Origin: a virus | Virus record (IMG/VR): IMGVR_UViG_3300030451_004413 | Coordinates: 1 to 34,147 of that record | DNA length: 34,147 bases | Direction: 5' to 3' (one strand) | Part shown: piece by piece, positions 3,788-34,147 of the stretch | How positions within the stretch are numbered: the first letter of the stretch is position 1 | How the letters are laid out: each line of letters starts with the position of its first letter | Notes under the pieces: model-generated | Seen by the model: only the letters and a program-made list of their open reading frames with translations | What the model was told of the DNA's origin: nothing | The model's database searches: none | Program-made: the position numbers and the translations under genes

Positions 3788-4036
3788 ATGGACCTCTCCA
3801 CAGTAGACCTTGGTGTGATCGTTGCAATCATTGGACTCATCATCAAGAGCGCCCAAGACAAAGCATCACAAGCTGAGGAGCTAGGCCGTCTAAAACAGCA
3901 GGTGAGCTCTCTTGAGGCGCGTGGGTCTCGGTGGGATCAGAGGTTTAACGATATCGAGCGTGACTTAAGTGACATCAAGGCCAGTCTCGCAAGGGTCGAG
4001 GCTATCCTTGAGCAAGCTCACAGAGAAGCAAGATAA
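3788..4036 (+). CDS. Small TM-coiled-coil protein, holin/XhlA-like
   Basis: An 82-residue protein with a hydrophobic N-terminus (LGVIVAIIGLIIKSAQD, residues about 7-23) and a heptad-rich amphipathic remainder (ELGRLKQQVSSLEAR ... DIERDLSDIKASLARVEAIL). Small proteins with one TM and a coiled coil are common in phage lysis cassettes as holin helpers. Its last 19 bases overlap, on the opposite strand, the end of the RecT-like gene, so transcripts from the two directions collide here. No terminator is visible between them. Confidence 0.45.
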   Translation: MDLSTVDLGVIVAIIGLIIKSAQDKASQAEELGRLKQQVSSLEARGSRWDQRFNDIERDLSDIKASLARVEAILEQAHREAR

Positions 4037-5214
4037 GACGCTTCGCTTGATGACGTGAAATCAGGGTTGTTTACTAGCTTCTTAAGTGAAGCCTTGGCGC
4101 GCTCGAGGTTGGCACCGGTGAAGTGAGCGCTGACCTTTGCACACTCCCAAAAGTCACGGCGTCCAAGATTCTTTCCTATGTCAGCATCTCTGATCTCAGC
4201 CAGTGCAGGAAACTCAGCTTTGATAGAAGCAAAGGTTTTCTTGTGCATACTGGTATTTCGCCACCACTCATCATCAATCATGTCACTGTTTCTCAGCGCT
4301 GAGCACAGGAGCCACTTGTAGAAGAAGTCGCGGCGCTCTTGCTCACTCATTTGGTCTATATGTGCGTTATGGCGTAAGCAGGCGGCGTTAACCTCATCTA
4401 CGCTCAGCTTATTAAACTTGATAGCGCCGTTAAGCATGTCACTGACAGATTCAAAAGCATTCAGAGGCGTAACCTTGGCGCGGTGGGTCTCAGGAGGCAC
4501 ATCATCTGAGAACGGCTTGACTTGTATACTCTGGTCCTCAACGCTGATCTCTGGCTGTGGCGCTGGTGTTGGCTGAGGAGCTCTCTGAGGCTGTGGCTGA
4601 CGTGAGGGCTGAGGAGGGCGCTGAGTCTGTGGGCGTGATGAGAGGTTGATGTCCTCACCCATGCTCTGAGCAATGATCATCGAGCGCTCTTGGTCATTCA
4701 TGCTCGTGTTATCAGCGATCTCATCAACTGAGTAGATACCACTCACGCAGTCTGGGAACGTAGCGCGGAGACCCATTGTCAATGCTCGAGCGCGTAACAT
4801 CTGCATGGGCATACGTGACCAGTTTTGCTGCCGAGTGAGCCCTTGCTGTTGAGCCATCTGCATATTAAAGGTGTAGATGTGGGTGATCTCAGGAGGCTCA
4901 TCTGTACGCGCCATCTCAATAGTGCATGCCTCATGAGTCCACTCAAGCACGCGGATGAATCGACAGAGACCAGAGCGGCGACAGATGCCCGCCATAGCGT
5001 CAGCGTTAAGCGTGGGCTTACCCTTGAGTACATAGCCTTGCGTGATAGTGCGCCCCATATCATAACCGAAGTGGTGGCCAAAAGCTGAATAGAGTAGCAC
5101 ATAGTCATGAGCCTTGCGCTGGTCACCGTTGCTCAGGAGCATGGCCAAGCTCTGCACATTATTAATGAGGTCTGGTGTAGTCTGCGTTGGGTTAAAGATG
5201 TTAATGAAGTTCAT
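4018..5214 (-). CDS. recT: RecT-like single-strand DNA annealing protein
   Basis: A 398-residue protein. Residues about 30-170 fit the RecT family: an early GKPTLNADAMAGICRRSG region and, most telling, NWSRMPMQMLRARALTMGLRATFPDCVSGIYSVDEI, close to the family pattern in which an M-LR-RA- motif is followed by a YTxEE-like segment. RecT proteins bind ssDNA and anneal complementary strands during phage recombination and replication. A Pro/Gln-rich linker (about residues 195-225) joins this to a C-terminal domain of unknown role. The usual partner exonuclease is not adjacent; the PD-(D/E)XK protein at 8666-9886 is a possible substitute. The start codon follows a GA-repeat ribosome binding site. 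Transcribed with the repressor, against the rest of the genome. Confidence 0.8.
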   Translation of the reverse strand: MNFINIFNPTQTTPDLINNVQSLAMLLSNGDQRKAHDYVLLYSAFGHHFGYDMGRTITQGYVLKGKPTLNADAMAGICRRSGLCRFIRVLEWTHEACTIEMARTDEPPEITHIYTFNMQMAQQQGLTRQQNWSRMPMQMLRARALTMGLRATFPDCVSGIYSVDEIADNTSMNDQERSMIIAQSMGEDINLSSRPQTQRPPQPSRQPQPQRAPQPTPAPQPEISVEDQSIQVKPFSDDVPPETHRAKVTPLNAFESVSDMLNGAIKFNKLSVDEVNAACLRHNAHIDQMSEQERRDFFYKWLLCSALRNSDMIDDEWWRNTSMHKKTFASIKAEFPALAEIRDADIGKNLGRRDFWECAKVSAHFTGANLERAKASLKKLVNNPDFTSSSEASYLASL

Positions 5215-5568: not shown

Positions 5569-5994
5569 TTACCAGCGCGCTGACTGGTCTTCAGGTTGTA
5601 AGTCTAGGTTATAGCCGCCCCACGATTGTGAGACGCCATCATAGACGAGGTGATTCAATGCGACCATCAAGCCGAGGTCATGACTGTGCTCCTCAAGGAG
5701 CTCCCCGGCGGTGATGATCTTGGTGACATTAAGCAGAATGACGTGGACTCTGATGAGCACATCATCACACACATTCTGATAGTTTGGTGATAGGTCGGCG
5801 TTGAAGTCATTAGGGTCAAAGATGCTCATCCCACACAGCTCGTCAGCAGCTGATGCGAGCTTACGTGCCAGATCTAGATTAGCCTTTCTTTGGCCGTTGA
5901 TGATCTTAGACAGGTTTGAAACTTGCATCCCCACAGCATCAGCCAGCGCTGTGAGCTTCATTCCTCTGATCAAAAGCATCTTAGTGTCATTCAT
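5569..5994 (-). CDS. Cro/CI-type HTH transcriptional repressor
   Basis: Residues about 13-50 form a helix-turn-helix of the HTH_3 family (LTALADAVGMQVSNLSKIINGQRKANLDLARKLASA). The rest of the 141-residue protein is acidic and hydrophobic and may form a dimer domain, with no visible LexA-type Ser/Lys protease motif. I place the start at ATG 5994 because GGGAG lies 5 bases upstream; a further in-frame ATG at 6006 has no good site. It begins about 40 bases from the divergent rightward promoter and probably binds the dyads at 6023-6074 to regulate both directions. Confidence 0.8.
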   Translation of the reverse strand: MNDTKMLLIRGMKLTALADAVGMQVSNLSKIINGQRKANLDLARKLASAADELCGMSIFDPNDFNADLSPNYQNVCDDVLIRVHVILLNVTKIITAGELLEEHSHDLGLMVALNHLVYDGVSQSWGGYNLDLQPEDQSARW

Positions 5995-6022
5995 GGTGTC
6001 TCCCATATACCTATCAATAAAT

Positions 6023-6036: not shown

Positions 6037-6065
6037 TTGACAACATTCTTATCAAGAGATATAAA
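6037..6065 (+). promoter_or_regulatory. Early rightward sigma-70 promoter
   Basis: TTGACA (6037-6042) is a perfect -35 box, followed by a 17-base spacer and TATAAA (6060-6065), one base from the -10 consensus. It faces the initiator gene, whose ATG is about 40 bases downstream. This is the best promoter in the window by sequence. Confidence 0.8.
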
Positions 6066-6074
6066 AGTTGTCAA
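6037..6074. promoter_or_regulatory. Inverted repeat spanning early promoter
   Basis: TTGACAAC (6037-6044) is matched by its exact reverse complement GTTGTCAA (6067-6074). The left arm includes the -35 box and the right arm lies just past the -10 box. On the other strand the right arm also supplies a TTGACA, so it may double as the -35 of a leftward repressor promoter, though the matching -10 (TAAGAA) is poor. Probable operator. Confidence 0.55.
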
Positions 6075-6106: not shown

Positions 6107-6874
6107 ATGAAAGAACACGAGATCATTGACATGATCATGACTCTAAAGCTCAGTAATACGTCTAAACTGATCTTCGTAGCGCTCGCAAGGAGACTGGACT
6201 GGTCAACATGGTCCAAGGCCATGAGTGTCTCTTATATATACAACATGCTTGGCGGCACTGTATCACAGCGCAGTATCTCAAGAGCGTTGGCTGAGTTGGT
6301 CACTATGCAGCTGATCACGAGAACACAGAGTGAGAGAGCTGATAACACTAAGCTCATCACCCTCAACACCTCAGAGCTTGTCAAACTCTCAACAGCTCCA
6401 CCGACTGAGTTAGACCCTGTCACTGTGTCAGACCCTGTCACTATGTCACCCCCTGACACCATGACAGATCCTGACACTATGTCACCCTCTGTCACTATGT
6501 CAGATCTGACACCATGTCATGATGACCCTGTCACTGTGTCAGACCAGACCCTGACACCATGTCATGGTGACCCTGACACCATGTCAGACAATAAACTCTA
6601 TATAACTCTAAATCATAATTCTAAAAAAACTCTATCTACAGAGAAGTCTAGTCAGGGCGGCTCAACATTTCAATTTAGCAATGAAGAGGATGACTCTGAG
6701 GAACCTGATGACGTAAACTCTGAGCAGACTAATGACAGGATCAAAGAATATTTTAAAAGACCATCTGAGCCAGTCCAGCCAGTGATGAGCATACAAGAGG
6801 AGAAGCGAGCGCGAGAGCTCAAGATCATGGAAGCACAAGACTTGAAGAGCAAGTCATACAGAAGGAGATACTGA
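6107..6874 (+). CDS. Winged-helix replication initiator, lambda O-like
   Basis: The start is ATG 6107, preceded by AAAGGTGAG; an upstream in-frame TTG at 6068 lies inside the promoter. The 255-residue protein opens with a winged-helix domain (about residues 15-85: SKLIFVALARRL, YIYNMLGGTVSQRSISRALAELVTMQLI). Residues 104-160 are a low-complexity run of DPVTMS/DPDTMS units, encoded by DNA iterons. The C-terminal half is acidic then basic and may contact the loader. Initiator with internal iterons followed by an AAA+ loader is the lambda O-P arrangement. It likely binds the iterons, opens the adjacent AT-rich DNA and recruits the helicase loader. Confidence 0.75.
   Translation: MKEHEIIDMIMTLKLSNTSKLIFVALARRLDWSTWSKAMSVSYIYNMLGGTVSQRSISRALAELVTMQLITRTQSERADNTKLITLNTSELVKLSTAPPTELDPVTVSDPVTMSPPDTMTDPDTMSPSVTMSDLTPCHDDPVTVSDQTLTPCHGDPDTMSDNKLYITLNHNSKKTLSTEKSSQGGSTFQFSNEEDDSEEPDDVNSEQTNDRIKEYFKRPSEPVQPVMSIQEEKRARELKIMEAQDLKSKSYRRRY
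6418..6586 (+). repeat. Nine 13-bp iterons, probable origin of replication
   Basis: Nine copies of TG(A/T)CAC(C/T)(A/G)TG(T/A)CA begin at 6418, 6436, 6454, 6472, 6490, 6507, 6529, 6552 and 6574. The first five are exactly 18 bases apart, the rest 17-23. Each unit is itself a dyad (TGACA-NNN-TGTCA), as expected for a dimeric binding protein. They lie within the initiator gene, as in lambdoid phages. The encoded protein is low-complexity here, suggesting selection on the DNA. Confidence 0.75.
6587..6645. other. AT-rich DNA-unwinding element candidate
   Basis: Immediately after the last iteron comes a strongly AT-rich stretch with AACTCTA at 6594, 6604 and 6628 and a run of seven A. Iterons followed by AT-rich DNA is the layout of lambda ori, where the initiator complex melts the duplex. 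Confidence 0.6.
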
Positions 6875-7818
6875 TGATAAAAACTACAGAGATACATGGA
6901 TTTCAAAAGCTCGACCTCACAGAGCTACACCAAGCAGCTGCACAGATGCGCGAGGCCATCGCCAAGCGAAGAGGTCAGACAGAGTATAAGCCAGTCGATC
7001 AGCACACTTTTGAGGATCACAGCCACATCACAGCGCGCAATCTTGAGAAGGAGAATATGCTGATTAAGGGAGCGCCCACGCTCACATGCAAGACCATCCC
7101 CCATTGTGGAGGTTGTCAAGCAGGATGGATCATCACCAGACCATCACCCTCATCAGCTCCCATCTCTAGGATGTGTCACCGTTGTGAGGTTCCACGCAGA
7201 TGGATGAAGGCACTAAACAAGCTCGAGCTCCCCTGTGATGCTGAGGGTATGCATCTAGACAGCTATGAGCCAGACTCACCACGTCAGCTCGAGGTCATTG
7301 GTGATGTAATCAAATACCTCAATAGAGAACATGAAGGGAATCCACCGGCGGCGCTGGTCTATGGTCCTCCTGGCAACGGCAAGACCTCAATTCTCTATGC
7401 TATTGCTCGAGAGGCATGTGAGAAGCGCTGGAGGGTAAAGTATACTTCACACACTCAGCTTATGAACCAAGTGCAAAGCTCATGGGGTGACAGACATAAG
7501 CGTAACCCGCTTGAGACTTGGCTTGATAATGTTGACCTTCTTCTACTTGATGAGTTTTGTGGGATAGGTGGCAGCGCCCACAAGCAGGGTTGGTGGATCA
7601 AGCAGACTCTCGAGCTCATAGAGGAGATTCAGCGCAAGTGGCGAGCGGGTGAGCTAGCTGTGATCGTGACGACTAACGTCTACCCTCAGAAGATGTTTGA
7701 TATGTTTCATGGTAATCCAGCTTTTAGGTCTAGAGTGTTGGGTATGTTTACACCCTGTGAGATGGTTGGGAGAGATCGACGGATTGACAATGTGGATCTT
7801 AGCGCGTGGGGACTGTAA
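6874..7818 (+). CDS. AAA+ helicase loader, DnaC/IstB-like
   Basis: A 314-residue ATPase. The Walker A motif is GPPGNGKT (residues 164-171), Walker B LLLLDEF (about 220), sensor 1 VIVTTN and an arginine finger candidate in FRSRVLGMF. A Cys cluster at C72, C78, C81, C101 and C104 precedes the ATPase and may bind zinc. Proteins of this family load the host replicative helicase DnaB at the origin. ATG 6874 overlaps the stop of the initiator gene and follows AAGGAG, so the two are translationally coupled. No phage helicase or polymerase was seen, so host replication enzymes are probably used. Confidence 0.85.
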   Translation: MIKTTEIHGFQKLDLTELHQAAAQMREAIAKRRGQTEYKPVDQHTFEDHSHITARNLEKENMLIKGAPTLTCKTIPHCGGCQAGWIITRPSPSSAPISRMCHRCEVPRRWMKALNKLELPCDAEGMHLDSYEPDSPRQLEVIGDVIKYLNREHEGNPPAALVYGPPGNGKTSILYAIAREACEKRWRVKYTSHTQLMNQVQSSWGDRHKRNPLETWLDNVDLLLLDEFCGIGGSAHKQGWWIKQTLELIEEIQRKWRAGELAVIVTTNVYPQKMFDMFHGNPAFRSRVLGMFTPCEMVGRDRRIDNVDLSAWGL

Positions 7819-7832
7819 ACAAAGTATACAAA

Positions 7833-7865
7833 AGTCTTGACTACACTTTAAGACTCTGCTTTACT
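7833..7865 (+). promoter_or_regulatory. Candidate promoter with inverted repeat upstream of RHH/SSB genes
   Basis: TTGACT (7837-7842), a 17-base gap and TTTACT (7860-7865) form a moderate sigma-70 promoter. It is overlapped by the inverted repeat AGTCTT (7833-7838) and AAGACT (7850-7855). The 11-mer CAAAAGTCTTG at 7829 recurs at 8008, inside the first codons of the RHH gene, so that protein may regulate itself. This and the hairpin below are what I see in the 186-bp gap 7819-8004. Confidence 0.35.
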
Positions 7866-7954
7866 GCCTCTGCTGATCCCCTCATAAACTTTTAAGCGCA
7901 TACTTTACGAGCTGAGCTTTTAAAATCGAGGGGGAAGTAAGGTTGTTAGGTGAT

Positions 7955-7986
7955 CTCATCCCCCTGCTGTGGGGTGGGGGGATGAG
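7955..7986 (+). other. Strong GC-rich hairpin upstream of RHH gene
   Basis: CTCATCCCCC (7955-7964) and GGGGGATGAG (7977-7986) form a perfect 10-bp stem with a 12-base loop. There is no T run after it, so it is not an ordinary intrinsic terminator. It ends about 18 bases before the next start codon and could act as an attenuator, mRNA-end stabiliser or protein-binding element. Confidence 0.5.
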
Positions 7987-8004
7987 TGAACTCTTGGGAG
8001 TCAC

Positions 8005-8229
8005 ATGCAAAAGTCTTGTATCGTCACATTCCGATGTACAGAGAGTGAGCTAGAGAGACTCACGGCGCTAGCTAATGAGCTAGATAGAACACGCGCCTGG
8101 ATTGCTCGAGAGATCATCTTTGGTGACTTCTTCATCAAGTACCATTCAGGCATCCTAGGCGCTAAGACTAACATCGAGGCCCAGATGCATATTAACCAAC
8201 ACATGAAGAGAGATGATGATGATCAATAA
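8005..8229 (+). CDS. Small ribbon-helix-helix (CopG/Arc-like) protein
   Basis: A 74-residue protein whose first 40 residues (IVTFRCTESELERLTALANELDRTRAWIAREII) follow the RHH pattern: a beta strand with alternating polar residues, helix, turn and helix. Such dimers bind operators and often regulate their own gene. GGGAG lies 4 bases before the ATG. The gene overlaps the SSB gene and likely shares its transcript. Beyond residue 45 the sequence is unassigned and ends in DDDDQ. Confidence 0.65.
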   Translation: MQKSCIVTFRCTESELERLTALANELDRTRAWIAREIIFGDFFIKYHSGILGAKTNIEAQMHINQHMKRDDDDQ

Positions 8230-8632
8230 AGTCATGCTCATTGGTAACATTGGCAAAGATGCTGAGCTCCTGACCACTCAAAGCGGCTCTAAGTTTTGTA
8301 AGTTTACCTTAGCCACTAACGAGCGTTACACAGACAGTCAAGGCCAGCTCCAGACCTCAACCGAGTGGCACACGATTAAAATCTGGGGTCCACAAGGTGA
8401 GCGCGCTGTAGCCAAATGCCGCAAGGGTCGACGCTGTTATGTGGAGGGTAAGCTGACCAGCTATGAGGGCACAGATAACAAAAGGTTTTGGGAAGTGCGC
8501 TGTTATACCTGGAGAATCCTAGACAGTGATGAGCGTGATGGTGTGCAAGTACGCAGCAAGCCACAGCAACCACAACACTATCAGTATGGAGTGACAACAC
8601 CCTCACCGAGCTGGGGCGCTCCTATTAAATAA
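8219..8632 (+). CDS. ssb: Single-stranded DNA-binding protein
   Basis: An OB-fold SSB of 137 residues: NKVMLIGNIGKDAEL at the N-terminus, KFTLATNERY, TEWHTIKIWG and KGRRCYVEGKLTSYE follow the bacterial SSB pattern in order. Three in-frame ATGs occur at 8213, 8216 and 8219; I use the last because the family starts MINKV-like and the AGAGAG site is then 6 bases away. The C-terminus is PSWGAPIK, without the acidic DDIPF-type tip that bacterial SSBs use to recruit partners. It coats ssDNA during phage replication and may work with the RecT-like protein. Confidence 0.9.
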   Translation: MINKVMLIGNIGKDAELLTTQSGSKFCKFTLATNERYTDSQGQLQTSTEWHTIKIWGPQGERAVAKCRKGRRCYVEGKLTSYEGTDNKRFWEVRCYTWRILDSDERDGVQVRSKPQQPQHYQYGVTTPSPSWGAPIK

Positions 8633-8665
8633 TAATGTTAACCCCATGATGGGGATGAGAGAGAG

Positions 8666-9886
8666 ATGATGAATATACAACCGAACAAACCACCAAAGAG
8701 CCGGTTTAAAGTTGATACTGGTGACTCTGGCGTGACCGGTGGGCAAGCCTTAGGCAATGCCCTAGAGCACTACATGTTTACCATGCTGAATACAATTGAG
8801 ATGTGCCAATCAACTTATACATTAAGAAATGGACTCAACTACGCGTGCGACATCATAACTGAAAGTGGAGTATTGGTCGAAGTAAAGTCACATAGAGACG
8901 CTCAAGGCACATTCCGCACAGATCAAGCATTTTCAAAGATTAGGAGACTTGAGCAGCAGATGGCTCAAATGAGGAGGTATAATAAGCCCATACTGGTCAT
9001 TATTGGTGTCTATACCGCGCCGGTTGAGTCTGTGGCCATGAATCTGCATACAGGTGATGGGTATATGGAGTGGAGAGGTCAGCCTCAAATGCTTAAGGCA
9101 TATGAAGAGCAGTATCAGTTCTATCTATACGCAGAGCATGAGGGGCAAGGGAGATGGTTTGATGCTGATGGGCTATGCCCACATAAGAGCCCATATATTT
9201 ATGATTGGTTAAACAATGGCGCGGGCGGCTCACTTAGAGAGAGAGTGGTCAAGTATGCAACAGGGCAGGAAGGCCAAGCGCAACTCCCGTTTAAATTACC
9301 ACAAGAGGAGATCTCAGAAATGAGTCATGATGACCAAGTTGAGGCTAGAGCTGCGCATGAGATGTTCCAAGCGACAGCTAGATACATGTGCATCCTGTCC
9401 GACAGGCAGTGCTCAGCGGATAGAGAAGAACTTGAAGATGATCTAGCTCAGGTCAAATCAGCGATGATCTCAGACATGAGCCAGATTAAGGGAGCCCTTG
9501 ACTCACACAACAGGAGTCTTATAGAGCTAAGCAATGCTAATTCAACTGTTAAAAGAAGTATTAACGATCTTGAGTTAGAGCTCTCAGGACTAGCTAGTAT
9601 ACAAGCTGATGACGCGGTCAATCTGTCTCAAGTGAATGAAAGAGTGTCAAACCTTGACGAGAAAATTAAACAAGCACAGATCCAACTAGAACGGGCACAG
9701 CTACAACTAGAACAATCAAATCAGAATGCGGCTTGTTTAGGGGCAAATCTAAATGAGAGTATACGCTTATCCAATGAACATGCGTCTCGGTTTAACGACG
9801 CAACAAATGCATTAGACGTCGCTATCAGGTATCTTTACAGTCAACTAGGTGTAGATATCGAAGAGGCTTATAGTAGTGAAGGCTAA
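8666..9886 (+). CDS. PD-(D/E)XK nuclease-like protein with coiled-coil C-terminus
   Basis: A 406-residue protein. The N-terminus has a PD-(D/E)XK signature: E34 in a helix (GNALEHYMF), D62 in YACDII, then E72 and K74 in VLVEVKSHRD. This is the metal-dependent core of many phage exonucleases and restriction-like enzymes. Residues about 250-385 are long heptad-like helices (EELEDDLAQVKSAM, IKQAQIQLERAQLQLEQ), predicted coiled coil. It sits after ssb and could be the exonuclease partner of the distant RecT-like protein, or a defence or host-DNA-degrading nuclease. Codons here use more A and T than flanking genes. Starts at ATG 8666 or 8669 after a GA-repeat site. Confidence 0.6.
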   Translation: MMNIQPNKPPKSRFKVDTGDSGVTGGQALGNALEHYMFTMLNTIEMCQSTYTLRNGLNYACDIITESGVLVEVKSHRDAQGTFRTDQAFSKIRRLEQQMAQMRRYNKPILVIIGVYTAPVESVAMNLHTGDGYMEWRGQPQMLKAYEEQYQFYLYAEHEGQGRWFDADGLCPHKSPYIYDWLNNGAGGSLRERVVKYATGQEGQAQLPFKLPQEEISEMSHDDQVEARAAHEMFQATARYMCILSDRQCSADREELEDDLAQVKSAMISDMSQIKGALDSHNRSLIELSNANSTVKRSINDLELELSGLASIQADDAVNLSQVNERVSNLDEKIKQAQIQLERAQLQLEQSNQNAACLGANLNESIRLSNEHASRFNDATNALDVAIRYLYSQLGVDIEEAYSSEG

Positions 9887-10652
9887 GTCAACACGGCAAG
9901 ACCTATTAACCGCCTTAAGTGAGGGTCTGACTATCAATGAGGCGTGTAAGCGCGCTAGAGTTAGCAAGTCCACATACTACAGATGGCTAAGAGTTAGCGG
10001 TGAAGAAGGAGCGTGGGCCTATCAAATAAAAAAAGCTTTAAGAGAAGGGCGCATCTCAGGAGTGAGGTTAAATGCGTTTAACCATGCTGGTGATAACTCA
10101 CTGTACAGCTTAAACCGCAGGTCAAAGATGATGCATATCCAAGGCGCTAGCTGGGGTCATGTTGTTCATGCATACGAAGACATCAAAGCGAAACAGGTTA
10201 ATAAATATTCTTATCATTTATGTAGGGCTATAGCAGATCATTATGATCAATATCTAATTGGTCTTTTAGAAGGACCGCCAGAGCACCTAAAACAACTCAA
10301 TATGTTTGAGCCCAACCTTGATGAGAATCATGACTTTTATGCTAGTACCTTACTCACACATATAGCGCTTCACGCTCTAGTGTCTGACTTTATACAAAAC
10401 ATGGAAGAGGCTGAGGAGTTCTATAGGCATTATGAAAAAAGAGGACATGAGCCTCACGATATTATCCACATGATGATTAAGGTTTTTCAATATTGTACTA
10501 TCTGGACAGATACGCGGCCTAATCTTATAGGTGTTTTTGACTTCACTGGGTTCAAAGGCTGCTTAAAAGAGTTTCAAGGTTTAAATATTGACCGAATTAT
10601 GGATGACCTAGCTGAGATGGATCTATATAACACGAGTGAAGAAGTACACTAA
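9876..10652 (+). CDS. HTH protein, paralogue of small terminase N-terminus, with unknown C-terminal domain
   Basis: Start GTG 9876, overlapping the previous gene by 11 bases. Residues 7-55 (RQDLLTALSEGLTINEACK, ARVSKSTYYRWLRVSGEEG) align by eye, without gaps, to the small terminase at 11002 (RDQLLANLREGMTIEAACA, SDISKSTFYEWLKKSGEGG). The remaining 200 residues are helical, rich in His, Tyr and Asp, and I do not recognise them; there is no nuclease or ATPase motif. It may bind the same kind of DNA site as the small terminase or regulate packaging or late genes. Its codons are noticeably AT-rich around 10190-10500. Confidence 0.6.
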   Translation: MKAKSTRQDLLTALSEGLTINEACKRARVSKSTYYRWLRVSGEEGAWAYQIKKALREGRISGVRLNAFNHAGDNSLYSLNRRSKMMHIQGASWGHVVHAYEDIKAKQVNKYSYHLCRAIADHYDQYLIGLLEGPPEHLKQLNMFEPNLDENHDFYASTLLTHIALHALVSDFIQNMEEAEEFYRHYEKRGHEPHDIIHMMIKVFQYCTIWTDTRPNLIGVFDFTGFKGCLKEFQGLNIDRIMDDLAEMDLYNTSEEVH

Positions 10653-10870
10653 TGGACAAATTAAACCCACAGACGCGCGCGCGCACACGCGATGCAATCC
10701 AGATCCTAGAGGAACTCAAGCGGCTTCTGATCATCGCTGAGAGTGACCCACTTTGCAGACAAGCCCAAGAGCTCTATGATAATGTTGAGCGCACATTAAG
10801 AGAAGCACATAGACAGTGGAGAGCCCATGAGCATAAATGCACACATAGCGAGGATGAGACGCGAGGCTGA
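10652..10870 (+). CDS. Small helical charged protein
   Basis: A 72-residue protein starting one base into the previous stop (TAATG). It is predicted all-helical and highly charged (DAIQILEELKRLLIIAESDP, ELYDNVERTLREAHRQW), with a His/Cys-containing tail HEHKCTHSEDE. No family recognised. Its 3' end overlaps the next gene by 44 bases in another frame. Confidence 0.5.
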   Translation: MDKLNPQTRARTRDAIQILEELKRLLIIAESDPLCRQAQELYDNVERTLREAHRQWRAHEHKCTHSEDETRG

Positions 10871-11036
10871 GACGCAAGAGCAGAAAGAGAAGCGCCTGGC
10901 ATATCAGCGTGAGTATGCTAGACGGCGAAGAACTGCAGAGACACCAGAGCAACGTGAAGAGCGCTTAGCTTATCAACGCGCAGCTAACAGAAAGCATCGA
11001 CATGGGCAAAAGACGAAAGACCAGAGAGCAACGTGA
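10827..11036 (+). CDS. Arg-rich protein with 23-residue (STPR-like) repeats
   Basis: A 69-residue very basic protein. GGAG at 10818-10821 lies 5 bases before the ATG. Two copies of a 23-residue unit begin ETQEQKEKRLAYQREYARRR and ETPEQREERLAYQRAANRKH. This matches in length and character the score-and-three peptide repeat described as DNA-binding in silkworm FMBP-1, also seen in scattered other proteins. The likely role is DNA binding, next to the terminase. Overlaps both neighbours in different frames, but the good ribosome site and repeat structure argue it is real. Confidence 0.55.
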   Translation: MSINAHIARMRREAETQEQKEKRLAYQREYARRRRTAETPEQREERLAYQRAANRKHRHGQKTKDQRAT

Positions 11037-11445
11037 CCAGCTCTTAGCCAACCTCAGAGAAGGTATGACCATTGAGGCCGCGTGCGCTCAGTCTGATATT
11101 AGTAAGTCCACGTTCTATGAGTGGCTCAAGAAGAGCGGTGAAGGTGGAGAGTGGACCAAAGAGGTAGACGCGGCCATCACATTTAGCGAGGCGGTCATCC
11201 TCGATAAGATCAAGAGAGCCTCAGAACTTAAAGAAGACTGGAGAGGTTGGGCGTGGATTCTAGAGCGACGCTTCCCTCAAAGATGGGGAGCCAAGCGAGA
11301 GGTAGAAGTAAACGTCAACAATCCCCACCAACAATCAGACGAGATGTTCGCGGCTATGGTCGAGCAGAGTAATCAAGCCTATGCTCGAGGGTTAACCCAC
11401 ACAGAAGAAGAGGACAGTGATGATGAAGGTGAGAGTAAAGCTTAA
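11002..11445 (+). CDS. terS: Terminase small subunit
   Basis: A 147-residue protein with a basic N-terminus and an HTH (about residues 12-50: LLANLREGMTIEAACAQSDISKSTFYEWLKKSG), followed by a helical oligomerisation region (IKRASELKEDWRGWAWILERRFPQRWG) and an acidic tail. The WRGWAWILERRFPQRWG type of segment is common in phage small terminases. It recognises the packaging site and hands DNA to the large subunit encoded 220 bases downstream. Overlaps the previous and next genes. Confidence 0.75.
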   Translation: MGKRRKTREQRDQLLANLREGMTIEAACAQSDISKSTFYEWLKKSGEGGEWTKEVDAAITFSEAVILDKIKRASELKEDWRGWAWILERRFPQRWGAKREVEVNVNNPHQQSDEMFAAMVEQSNQAYARGLTHTEEEDSDDEGESKA

Positions 11446-11674
11446 ACGCTCATGGTCTGTGGAGCCATCTCGCGAGCGCGTCTATTATCGTGTCGAGGGT
11501 CTTTATCATAAAGTGTGTGAAGAGGATAGGTCTGATAATTGGACCATCTGTTACTATGACAGTCTAGACGTGGATCAGGGCGTGATTGTCAACGTGATTC
11601 AAGTTGATGTTCTAGGCCAAGAGCGCCACACAAAATACTCAGCCACATCGGAGGGTCTAGTCTTTGTCGATTGA
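11420..11674 (+). CDS. Small protein of unknown function between terminase genes
   Basis: 84 residues if started at ATG 11420, which has GAGG 6 bases upstream; a GTG lies at 11417 and another ATG at 11423. It reads as a small beta-strand-rich protein (RVYYRVEGLYHKV, NWTICYYDSLDV, IVNVIQVDVLG, HTKYSATSEGLVFV). No family recognised. It overlaps the small terminase by 26 bases and the large terminase by 11, so it is embedded in the packaging operon. Confidence 0.55.
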   Translation: MMKVRVKLKRSWSVEPSRERVYYRVEGLYHKVCEEDRSDNWTICYYDSLDVDQGVIVNVIQVDVLGQERHTKYSATSEGLVFVD

Positions 11675-13025
11675 GCTCAACCCTCTACAGCAAGACATCC
11701 TTGGCGCTATACGCAGAGAGGAGCGGATCATATCAGCTAGATGTGGATGGGGATCTGGTAAGACCTCAGCGCTGGTCTTCAGTTTATTATTTGTGAGTAA
11801 GTGGCGCGCCGGTCGGTCGAGCTTACTTGTCACAGATACCAATCCACGTTATAACAGTGTTCTACTCCCTGAGATGGAGAAGTGGTTGTCTCCCTTGGGA
11901 TGGACCTACAACCACACCTTGCGCCAATGGGCAGACTCTCAGACAGGCTCAACGGTGTGGTGTAGGTCTTATTATCGACCAGGCACACGAGACGCGACAC
12001 ACAACCCGCTTGAGGGTCTGAATGTGACCTCTGGTGTGTGCCTCATAGATGAGTGTCAGACCCTCTCATCAGAAGTGGCACACAAAGCCCTAGGCCGTCT
12101 CAGAGCTGGTCCGTCTCCCATCATGATCCTTGTGGGTCTACCTGTCAGCGGCGCTTGGTGGGTGGAGATGGCTGAGAGTGCTGGGTGTGCCCCCATGCTC
12201 TATACTTCCTATGTAAATGAGGCTAACCTTAGCGCTGACTGGTTTGAAGCCACCAAGCTTTTACCAGAGGCTGAGCGTGAAGCTATGGTTATGAACAAGC
12301 CGCGACCACCTAGCGGGCTCATCTACTCTGAGTTTAATGAGGAGACTCACGTCATCGATGGGTGGGAGTATAAACCGAGCATGTCAGGGCGCATTGCCAT
12401 TGATTGGGGATTCAGAAAACCAAGCGTGTTAATCATCGCCCATGATGATGACCTGGGGGCTGATGTGATCTGCGCAGAGCTTAACCCAGCAGAGGTCACC
12501 GTTGATGAGCTAGCGCGGCTCATCCTCCTCATAGCGTGGCCTCGATCTCTGAGGAGCTCAGCGCCAGGTGATCGCATTTGGTTAGATTATGGCGTTGCAG
12601 ATAAGGCAGGTAGAGCGCGCAATGACCAGACAGGCAGATCAGCATTTAAGGCTATGAGGTCAGCGCCGCCCACCGGTCTAGGGATGCCTCTGAGATCTAA
12701 CACAGACCCCATCAGGACTGACGTGCTCAACGGCATCCAGAGACTAAAGCGAGCATTCTCAAGAGGTCAGTACCTCATCACGCGTGAGGTGTGGGATGCT
12801 GGAGAGCGCGCCACAGGTAACAGCATAAGGAAAGCGCTGTACTCTTATGGTTGGGATAATAAAGAGCAGCCTAAGAAGGATGGCCGTGAGGATCCACTTG
12901 ACGCGCTCAGATATGACTGCATCACATGGAACTGGTCAGATACACTAGTTGATCACAGACAATACACAGCCAGAGCACCCACTGATAGACGTGTGAGGGT
13001 AGGCGGTAAAGGCTCCAAGTTTTAA
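11664..13025 (+). CDS. terL: Terminase large subunit
   Basis: A 453-residue packaging motor. The ATPase half has Walker A GWGSGKT (residues 28-34) and Walker B VCLIDEC (D129, E130). The nuclease half has the RNase H-like acidic residues D247 (IAIDWGF), D308 (WLDYG) and D413 (DPLDALRY). It pumps DNA into the prohead and cuts the concatemer. The start is TTG 11664, 9 bases after GGAGG; this is unusual but no ATG or GTG lies nearby before the Walker motif. A 100-bp gap with a candidate -10 element follows. Confidence 0.93.
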   Translation: MSIELNPLQQDILGAIRREERIISARCGWGSGKTSALVFSLLFVSKWRAGRSSLLVTDTNPRYNSVLLPEMEKWLSPLGWTYNHTLRQWADSQTGSTVWCRSYYRPGTRDATHNPLEGLNVTSGVCLIDECQTLSSEVAHKALGRLRAGPSPIMILVGLPVSGAWWVEMAESAGCAPMLYTSYVNEANLSADWFEATKLLPEAEREAMVMNKPRPPSGLIYSEFNEETHVIDGWEYKPSMSGRIAIDWGFRKPSVLIIAHDDDLGADVICAELNPAEVTVDELARLILLIAWPRSLRSSAPGDRIWLDYGVADKAGRARNDQTGRSAFKAMRSAPPTGLGMPLRSNTDPIRTDVLNGIQRLKRAFSRGQYLITREVWDAGERATGNSIRKALYSYGWDNKEQPKKDGREDPLDALRYDCITWNWSDTLVDHRQYTARAPTDRRVRVGGKGSKF

Positions 13026-13125: not shown

Positions 13126-13929
13126 ATGGTAGATCTCAAGGAACGTCAGCTCTGCATCGTGCTTCTCGACCTCATAGGCTCTACAGCTTTTGTCCAGCGT
13201 GTTGGCGCTAAAACAGCCGCTGTGTGGTTGCAGTATCATGATAGACTAGCGCGCTCACTCCTCTACAAGTTCAACGGTCGAGAGATAGATAGGTCTGATG
13301 GGTTTATGTTGAGCTTTGACAAGCCCATCGACGCGGTAAACTTTGCCCTACACTATCAAAGCACAATACCTGAGAAGGTAAAGCTAAACACAAGAATCGG
13401 CGTTCATTGGGGCTCAGTGATCGAAGTAAAACAGGATGACACTTGGACAGCTGTAGGCGCTAAGCGTGTGGAGCTCGAGGGCATCAGTAAAAACATAGCA
13501 GCGCGGACGATGTCTATCTGTGGAGCTGGTCAAGTCTTACTCACTCAGCAAGCTATCGATGCAGTGAGGAACAAGACCAACTATCACACACCAAAAGGGA
13601 CAAGGTTTATTTGCGTTGGCCTTTATAAGTTCAAGGGCGTGGGTCAACCTCAGTCTATCTATGCAGTGGGCTCAACCATACAGAGCTTACAGCCACCGCC
13701 GGGCAATGATAAAGCCAAGAGACTAGGCGGACCAAAGCGCGTGAGGAGTCGAGCGCGAGATAGAAAGATTATTGAGTGGGTGAGCTGGTCACTGCCACGC
13801 CTAGCGCTCATCAGCCTCATATACATTATCTGTGAAATCTGGCCTTGGCTCAGCGCTCAAGGCTATGTTACATGGGCTGAGGAGAGCGCTGACTTTATCG
13901 TGAGGTTGTGGTATGGCCCCAAATACTAA
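13126..13929 (+). CDS. Class III nucleotide cyclase with C-terminal membrane anchor
   Basis: A 267-residue protein. Residues 8-175 form a class III adenylate/guanylate cyclase domain: LLDLIGST with metal-binding D15, GREIDRSDGFMLSF with the second metal Asp D58, and KNIAARTMSICGAGQVLLT with transition-state N123 and R127. All four are present, so activity is likely. The positions that normally read the base are I54 (usually Lys) and E116 (usually Asp), so the nucleotide made cannot be predicted; cAMP, cGMP, cCMP and cUMP are all open. A very basic linker (KRVRSRARDRK) precedes a TM segment at about 225-250, placing the enzyme on the cytoplasmic face. AGGA lies 6 bases before the ATG. The two-TM gene behind it overlaps by 17 bases. 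Cyclases are rare in phages. Confidence 0.85.
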   Translation: MVDLKERQLCIVLLDLIGSTAFVQRVGAKTAAVWLQYHDRLARSLLYKFNGREIDRSDGFMLSFDKPIDAVNFALHYQSTIPEKVKLNTRIGVHWGSVIEVKQDDTWTAVGAKRVELEGISKNIAARTMSICGAGQVLLTQQAIDAVRNKTNYHTPKGTRFICVGLYKFKGVGQPQSIYAVGSTIQSLQPPPGNDKAKRLGGPKRVRSRARDRKIIEWVSWSLPRLALISLIYIICEIWPWLSAQGYVTWAEESADFIVRLWYGPKY

Positions 13930-33518: not shown

Positions 33519-34147
33519 ATGAGTATTGGTTCAAGTCCTTTCCAAGGCGGTGGGTCTGCATCAATCGCAGATGCAACAGAGTCAACAGCGGGCAAGATAA
33601 GAATTGCTACAACGTCAGAGTCTACGACAGGCACAAATGACACAACGGCGATGACGCCAGCTAAGGTTAAGGCGCGCATTGACGCGGCTTTAGTCGGCGG
33701 TATCGAATACAAGGGAATATTTAATGTAACGTCAGCCACACCAGATCTCAGCAACGCTACAAAGGGTGATCTGTATGTAGTTTCTGGGTCTGGCACTTTA
33801 TATGGTAAAGACTTTAATGCAGGTGATCATCTTCTTGTGAATGATGACATGGGTGGTGTGATCACTAACAGCAAGATAGACAAGGTTGACAACACTGACC
33901 AAGTCTCTAGCGTGAATGCATTAACTGGCGCTGTGGTGTTGAACGGTGCGAACCTTGACGGTGACCACAGCCCTAGCAACTACTCAGCAACTACAGACAA
34001 GATTGAAAAGCATCTAGAGGGCATTGATACAGCCCTCGGAGCTCGTCAACCTCTGGATGCAGGCCTGACATCTATCAGCGGCTTAACGACAGCAGCAGAC
34101 AAGATGCTGTACACCACTGGGTCAGATACGTATGCAGTAGCTGACTT
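33519..34147 (+). CDS. Tail fibre protein, N-terminal part (3' end cut by window)
   Basis: ATG 33519 follows AAGGAG by 8 bases and the frame stays open to the end, giving 209 residues. The N-terminus (FQGGGSASIADATESTAGKIRIATTSESTTGT, then TAMTPAKVKARIDAALVGG) is typical of phage fibres, where it joins the tail. A beta region follows (KGDLYVVSGSGTLYGKDF ... SVNALTGAVVLNG). From 34056 it enters the same 67-residue repeat as at the window start (DAGLTSISGLTTAADKM). The two ends are best read as one gene split by the window. Confidence 0.88.
   Translation, partial: MSIGSSPFQGGGSASIADATESTAGKIRIATTSESTTGTNDTTAMTPAKVKARIDAALVGGIEYKGIFNVTSATPDLSNATKGDLYVVSGSGTLYGKDFNAGDHLLVNDDMGGVITNSKIDKVDNTDQVSSVNALTGAVVLNGANLDGDHSPSNYSATTDKIEKHLEGIDTALGARQPLDAGLTSISGLTTAADKMLYTTGSDTYAVAD

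Follow-up and report, generated by a model that had tools for sequence, protein, structure and literature searches.

Positions 6418–6639 of an IMG/VR virus record (IMGVR_UViG_3300030451_004413), whose whole 34,147-nucleotide sequence is referred to here as the window, are very likely (a probability of roughly 0.88) the theta-type replication origin of a phage, built like the origin of lambda. In the mechanism that we propose, the N-terminal winged helix of the initiator, probably as one dimer per 13-bp dyad, would fill a row of iterons to give an O-some-like complex. This complex would destabilize the adjacent AT-rich tract, and the C-terminal helices of the initiator would recruit an AAA+ loader encoded next door, by which the host helicase would be delivered. 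The four AT-proximal iterons, 22–23 bp apart, would constitute the conserved core, and an upstream block with 18-bp spacing would act as an accessory array that gains and loses copies in frame-keeping steps. We infer both origin activity and the binding of the iterons by the initiator, as well as the melting of the tract, the loading of the helicase, the dimer state and the role of the 18-bp block. Gene order, domain anatomy, conservation at the DNA level, an adjoining tract of minimal stability and a natural swap of initiator domain and iterons make the origin reading well supported. The first-pass annotation had likewise placed an origin of the lambda kind within the initiator gene, and the same evidence strengthens that proposal; its description of the origin as distinct did not hold. 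The window very probably carries a lambda-type origin in a new clade of uncultured phages, with the two-block, longer iteron array as a modest architectural variant. Such origins are known mainly from enterobacterial phages, and the finding extends them to this clade.

The gene for the O-like initiator (255 amino acids) occupies 6107–6874 on the plus strand and was recognized by PHROG 678 ("replication initiation O-like", E = 8.7e-7). PHROG O-like families matched all six members of the initiator alignment, and the Pfam family Phage_rep_O (PF04492) scored below its curated cut-off (18.7 versus 28.7 bits, E = 0.0026). No relative of the initiator was detected among the annotated phages of the phage-record collection, and no solved structure resembling it by sequence was found. 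The N-terminal 104 residues were modeled as a winged helix (pLDDT 88.6, pTM 0.80). Foldseek matched this model to winged helices of the MarR, CodY and TubR types with a probability of 1.00 but with E > 0.001, and the matches are generic. On the domain model and Foldseek, residues 1–96 (6107–6394, plus strand) are the presumed iteron reader. Residues 98–196 have very low confidence in the full-length model and form a predicted disordered linker; their codons correspond to 6398–6694, so the iterons and the AT-rich tract are encoded within linker DNA. The C-terminal part (6640–6871, plus strand), with helices at residues 205–217 and 229–254, is the presumed loader contact. The predicted DNA-binding domain, linker and C-terminal helices, together with the co-exchange of domain and iterons described below, give the protein the anatomy of a lambda-type initiator. 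In the lambda O protein, DNA binding resides in the N-terminal part and P binding in the C-terminal part, with a flexible linker between them (PMC6022878).

The order of the surrounding genes is also that of a lambda-type replication region. A DnaC/DnaI-like AAA+ helicase loader gene (6874–7818, plus strand; PHROG 50 "DnaC-like helicase loader", E = 8.8e-24, with AAA/IstB matches and an alignment in agreement) adjoins the initiator, although its family differs from that of lambda P. A search of annotated phages for relatives of the loader gave a single weak match in a Listeria phage, and a host search of genome contigs with the loader alignment returned no relative. Ahead of its AAA+ core, the loader carries conserved cysteines (C72, C78xxC81 and C101xxC104), the pairs suggesting a zinc-binding N-terminal domain like that of DnaI-type loaders. 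Genes for a ribbon-helix-helix (RHH) protein (8005–8229) and an SSB (8213–8632) lie further downstream, and a Cro/CI-like helix-turn-helix repressor gene (5569–6006, minus strand; HTH_3, E = 1.6e-7) is divergent from the initiator.

A pattern search for the motif TGWCACYRTGWCA found nine exact copies on the plus strand, all within 6418–6586, which is nucleotides 312–480 of the 768-nt initiator gene. This array is far beyond chance. Outside it, no copy was found on either strand of the full record, and a reversed control pattern gave no match. The iteron unit is a 13-bp dyad, TGWCA-CYR-TGWCA, in which 5-bp half-sites (TGACA/TGTCA) flank a 3-bp center; dyad iterons of this kind (TGWCA-N3-TGWCA), lying inside the initiator gene, are as expected of a lambda-type origin. 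Iterons 1–5 (6418–6502; starts at 6418, 6436, 6454, 6472 and 6490) share a single codon phase and make up the 18-bp block. Iterons 6–9 (6507–6586; starts at 6507, 6529, 6552 and 6574) form the lambda-like AT-proximal core; their codon phases alternate, and this core is kept in relatives. Start-to-start spacings along the plus strand are 18, 18, 18, 18, 17, 22, 23 and 22. The first-pass annotation had reported nine 13-bp dyads in the initiator gene, five of them exactly 18 bases apart, with a shift in spacing from 18 to about 22. Every number proved accurate in the pattern search, and the shift turned out to be more informative than the count or the palindromes. Relatives were taken from IMG/VR and comprise close ones (L009–L012) and further ones with another type of N-terminal domain (L013 and L025–L027).

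The AT-rich tract (6590–6639, plus strand; 80% A+T) lies directly 3′ of the array and is the presumed unwinding element, an easily melted tract downstream of the iterons being another feature of lambda-type origins. Duplex stability and GC skew had been proposed as checks on the origin. The first picked out precisely this tract as the least stable 50-mer in the window. The second did not point uniquely to the site: the detrended minimum falls some 0.8 kb downstream, at 7408, the raw minimum is at 1662, and both are confounded because the coding strand changes at about 6 kb. The AT-rich tract is likewise the least stable stretch of each locus in L009–L012; in L026 it is not outstanding in stability. 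It contains AACTCTA at 6594, 6604 and 6628, the three copies noted earlier, and AATTCTA at 6617, and the positions of the short repeats are kept in three relatives. Of 5,000 shuffles that preserved composition only, 406 (about 8%) contained some hexamer in three copies, so the AACTCTA repeats are weak evidence on their own, and a case for their significance by composition was unconvincing.

This arrangement bears on the idea that the iterons do bind the initiator but mainly titrate it or autoregulate its gene, with replication starting elsewhere. Many plasmid iterons have control roles of this type, and the variable copy number described below would fit titration. However, the least stable tract adjoins the array, the loader gene comes next, and the arrangement matches that of lambda, in which the site is the origin. 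We regard a purely regulatory array as distinctly unlikely.

Comparison of the relatives ties the iterons to one half of the initiator. Class A loci (the window and L009–L012) have TGWCACYRTGWCA iterons, and class B loci (L013 and L025–L027) have CCTCANNNTGAGG-like iterons; scans of viral contigs with iteron-pair patterns returned no contigs beyond those already known. Among the window, L012, L013 and L026, N-terminal identity is 76% for window–L012 and 74% for L013–L026, versus 44–46% between classes. The C-terminal part pairs the same four differently, with 84% identity for window–L013, 90% for L012–L026 and 33–39% for the other pairs. Iteron similarity is 0.88 and 0.65 within the N-terminal classes versus 0.35–0.48 across them. 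As far as these sequences go, the iteron motif tracks the N-terminal domain in a 2 × 2 swap, and never the C-terminal domain, loader, repressor or neighboring genes. The window and L013 are collinear, with 88.6% DNA identity up to 6112 and 92% from 6639 to 12000; between these regions, blastn delimits an exchanged cassette in L013 (6113–6638, plus strand) that comprises the N-terminal domain, iterons and AT-rich tract. Other blastn settings place its right-hand edge at 6622. In the L012–L026 pair, too, the sequences become similar again where the AT-rich tract ends on its 3′ side (about 8517 in L012). The iteron row appears to have been exchanged between phages along with the DNA-binding half of the initiator. 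The sequence CAGAKAAGTCYAGTCAGG follows the AT-rich tract directly (6637–6655 in the window) and is common to both initiator classes, occurring also in L012 and L026; it coincides with the right-hand cassette edge and is possibly a recombination joint.

The exchange weighs against the repeats being operators or a partition (centromere-like) site for the repressor or the RHH protein rather than sites for the initiator. Iterated dyads are typical of operators and centromeres too, an RHH gene is nearby, and the fold matches include winged helices of the TubR type. In L013, however, the repressor, loader and downstream genes retain 88–93% DNA identity, both candidate gene regions included, while the iterons change completely, and within the L013 sequence the initiator N-terminal domain alone changes along with them. 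That L013 keeps these genes argues against their products as the iteron reader, and an operator or partition role is very unlikely. For the origin reading, the mechanism is already known, and the clean exchange of domain and iterons makes its specificity directly testable: the 2 × 2 combinations (N-terminal domain and iterons against C-terminal part and loader) supply pairs for mapping the winged-helix residues that choose the iteron.

Selection on the array acts at the DNA level. The codon phases of the nine iterons are 2, 2, 2, 2, 2, 1, 2, 1 and 2, and the same iteron DNA yields P(D/V)T(M/V)S when translated in one phase but LTPCH in the other. When the 255-residue protein was recoded with the phage's own codon usage, a mean of 0.15 motifs was obtained, and permutation of synonymous codons within the gene gave a mean of 0.50. 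None of 3,000 recoding trials reached at least nine motifs, and the outcome was the same in four relatives, whose arrays hold seven to nine exact copies. The failure of recoding to regenerate the copies and their occurrence in two codon phases indicate selection on DNA, not protein; an amino-acid repeat cannot explain copies in two phases, and such an origin of the array was rejected on both counts. A reading in which the repeats only reflect a repetitive disordered linker (PDTMS/LTPCH) and the DNA itself has no function is extremely unlikely. In its favor, the linker encoded by the array is predicted to be disordered, and the tandem unit of the 18-bp block, six codons long, is prone to slippage. 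Against it, synonymous recoding abolishes the motif, one DNA motif yields different peptides, and dyads persist in both classes despite their differing sequence.

The gaps of 22, 23 and 22 bp resemble those of the four-iteron lambda core (20, 24 and 23), and on this comparison the best reading of the array is a lambda-like core of four iterons at the AT-proximal end, with an in-frame-expandable 18-bp block upstream. In all nine genes, an 18-bp-spaced block precedes the AT-proximal iterons, whose gaps are 21–24 bp throughout (22, 23, 22 in class A; 24, 22, 22 or 21, 22, 22 in class B). De novo calling gave 9, 8, 9, 7 and 8 iterons in class A (window, L009–L012), one L012 copy carrying a mismatch, and 6, 7, 8 and 10 in class B (L013, L025–L027). 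Because the 18-bp unit spans six codons, adding or removing one preserves the reading frame. L025 and L027 align over 10,052 bases with a single mismatch and a single 18-nt indel, the length of exactly one iteron unit; the indel could, however, reflect misassembly of a short tandem repeat. The L026 initiator (334 amino acids; locus positions 4992–5160) has one iteron at 4992 and about 150 bp extra before its main array, apparently an insertion or partial duplication. A more doubtful extension, which we offer tentatively, is a two-part device in which the core is fixed and the 18-bp block is a slippage-driven "dial", its copy number varying in phage populations and tuning initiation or inter-phage competition; the AT-tract repeats (AACTCT in class A, AGTCT in L013, AGTAA in L025) may then be strand-specific initiator contacts exchanged with the iterons. 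The lay-out of core and expandable block makes the role of the extra iterons testable.

As in the window, lambda has dyad iterons in the linker-coding part of the initiator gene, then an AT-rich tract, then the loader gene. It differs in having four iterons of 18–19 bp rather than nine 13-bp dyads, in iteron sequence, in lacking the 18-bp block and in having P in place of a DnaC/DnaI-like loader. The palindromic units, which had been considered distinct, are not: in lambda, too, the iterons are 19-bp imperfect inverted repeats (PMC7466680, PMC5043065), and most of the clear arrays in the lambdoid O genes surveyed consist of dyads. The count of nine, for which the same was claimed, does exceed the usual three to six of lambdoid O genes, but it varies from six to ten in the clade by 18-bp units, and Stx phages have six. 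In Stx phages, the two extra upstream iterons bind weakly, yet they are needed for efficient replication (PMC7466680). Stx-phage origins (P27, 933W) thus resemble the window in having more than four iterons with the extras upstream of the AT-proximal core, a precedent for an accessory block, whereas no 18-bp tandem block is reported for them. O-like genes of P22-like, Proteus, Erwinia and Klebsiella lambdoid phages contain three to six iterons, mostly clear dyads, 19–24 bp apart (core gaps 20, 24, 23–24 in the first three groups); they lack the 18-bp block, and their iteron and AT-tract repeat sequences differ from those of the window. No array was called in one Pseudomonas phage of this survey. 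In iteron plasmids (P1, RK2, R6K, pSC101), too, a series of initiator sites adjoins an AT-rich region where the duplex opens; both this arrangement and the opening of the AT region are described in PMC5043065. The class B iteron sequence (CCTCANNNTGAGG) is similar to the core of the lambda iterons (CCTCAAAACGAGG; positions 538 and 582 of the lambda locus, L017), and the proteins are barely alignable. Against the lambda O locus, lambda iterons 1 and 3 are the two best matches to the class B motif; unrelated sites in another locus score nearly equally, and common ancestry is not claimed.

Between repressor and initiator, a possible rightward promoter (TTGACA-17-TATAAA; 6037–6065, plus strand) points into the initiator gene. 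It is absent from the promoter-scan results because the scan demands a T as the sixth base of the second hexamer. The promoter-like site is flanked by an inverted repeat, TTGACAAC (6037) and GTTGTCAA (6067), spanning 6037–6074, and these repeats are likely repressor operators. In L011 and L012, the upstream sequence differs around a retained CTTGACAAC. The repressor gene is adjoined by a gene for a RecT/Bet-like single-strand annealing protein (4018–5214, minus strand; PHROG 561, E = 7.5e-18). Despite the presence of a repressor, no integrase was recognized in the ORFs that were scanned, and no tRNA was found. Near the portal gene, the protein encoded at 13126–13929 gave a borderline match (E = 2.3e-4, narrowly missing the cut-off) to an adenylate/guanylate cyclase catalytic domain, which is unusual in a phage. 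The ends of the record (1–60, with an ORF at 11–1690, and 34090–34147) have similar tail-fiber repeat sequence, GCAGACAAGATG...ACTGGGTCAGATACGTATGCAGT, and the record may therefore be a near-complete circular map broken within a repetitive tail-fiber gene.
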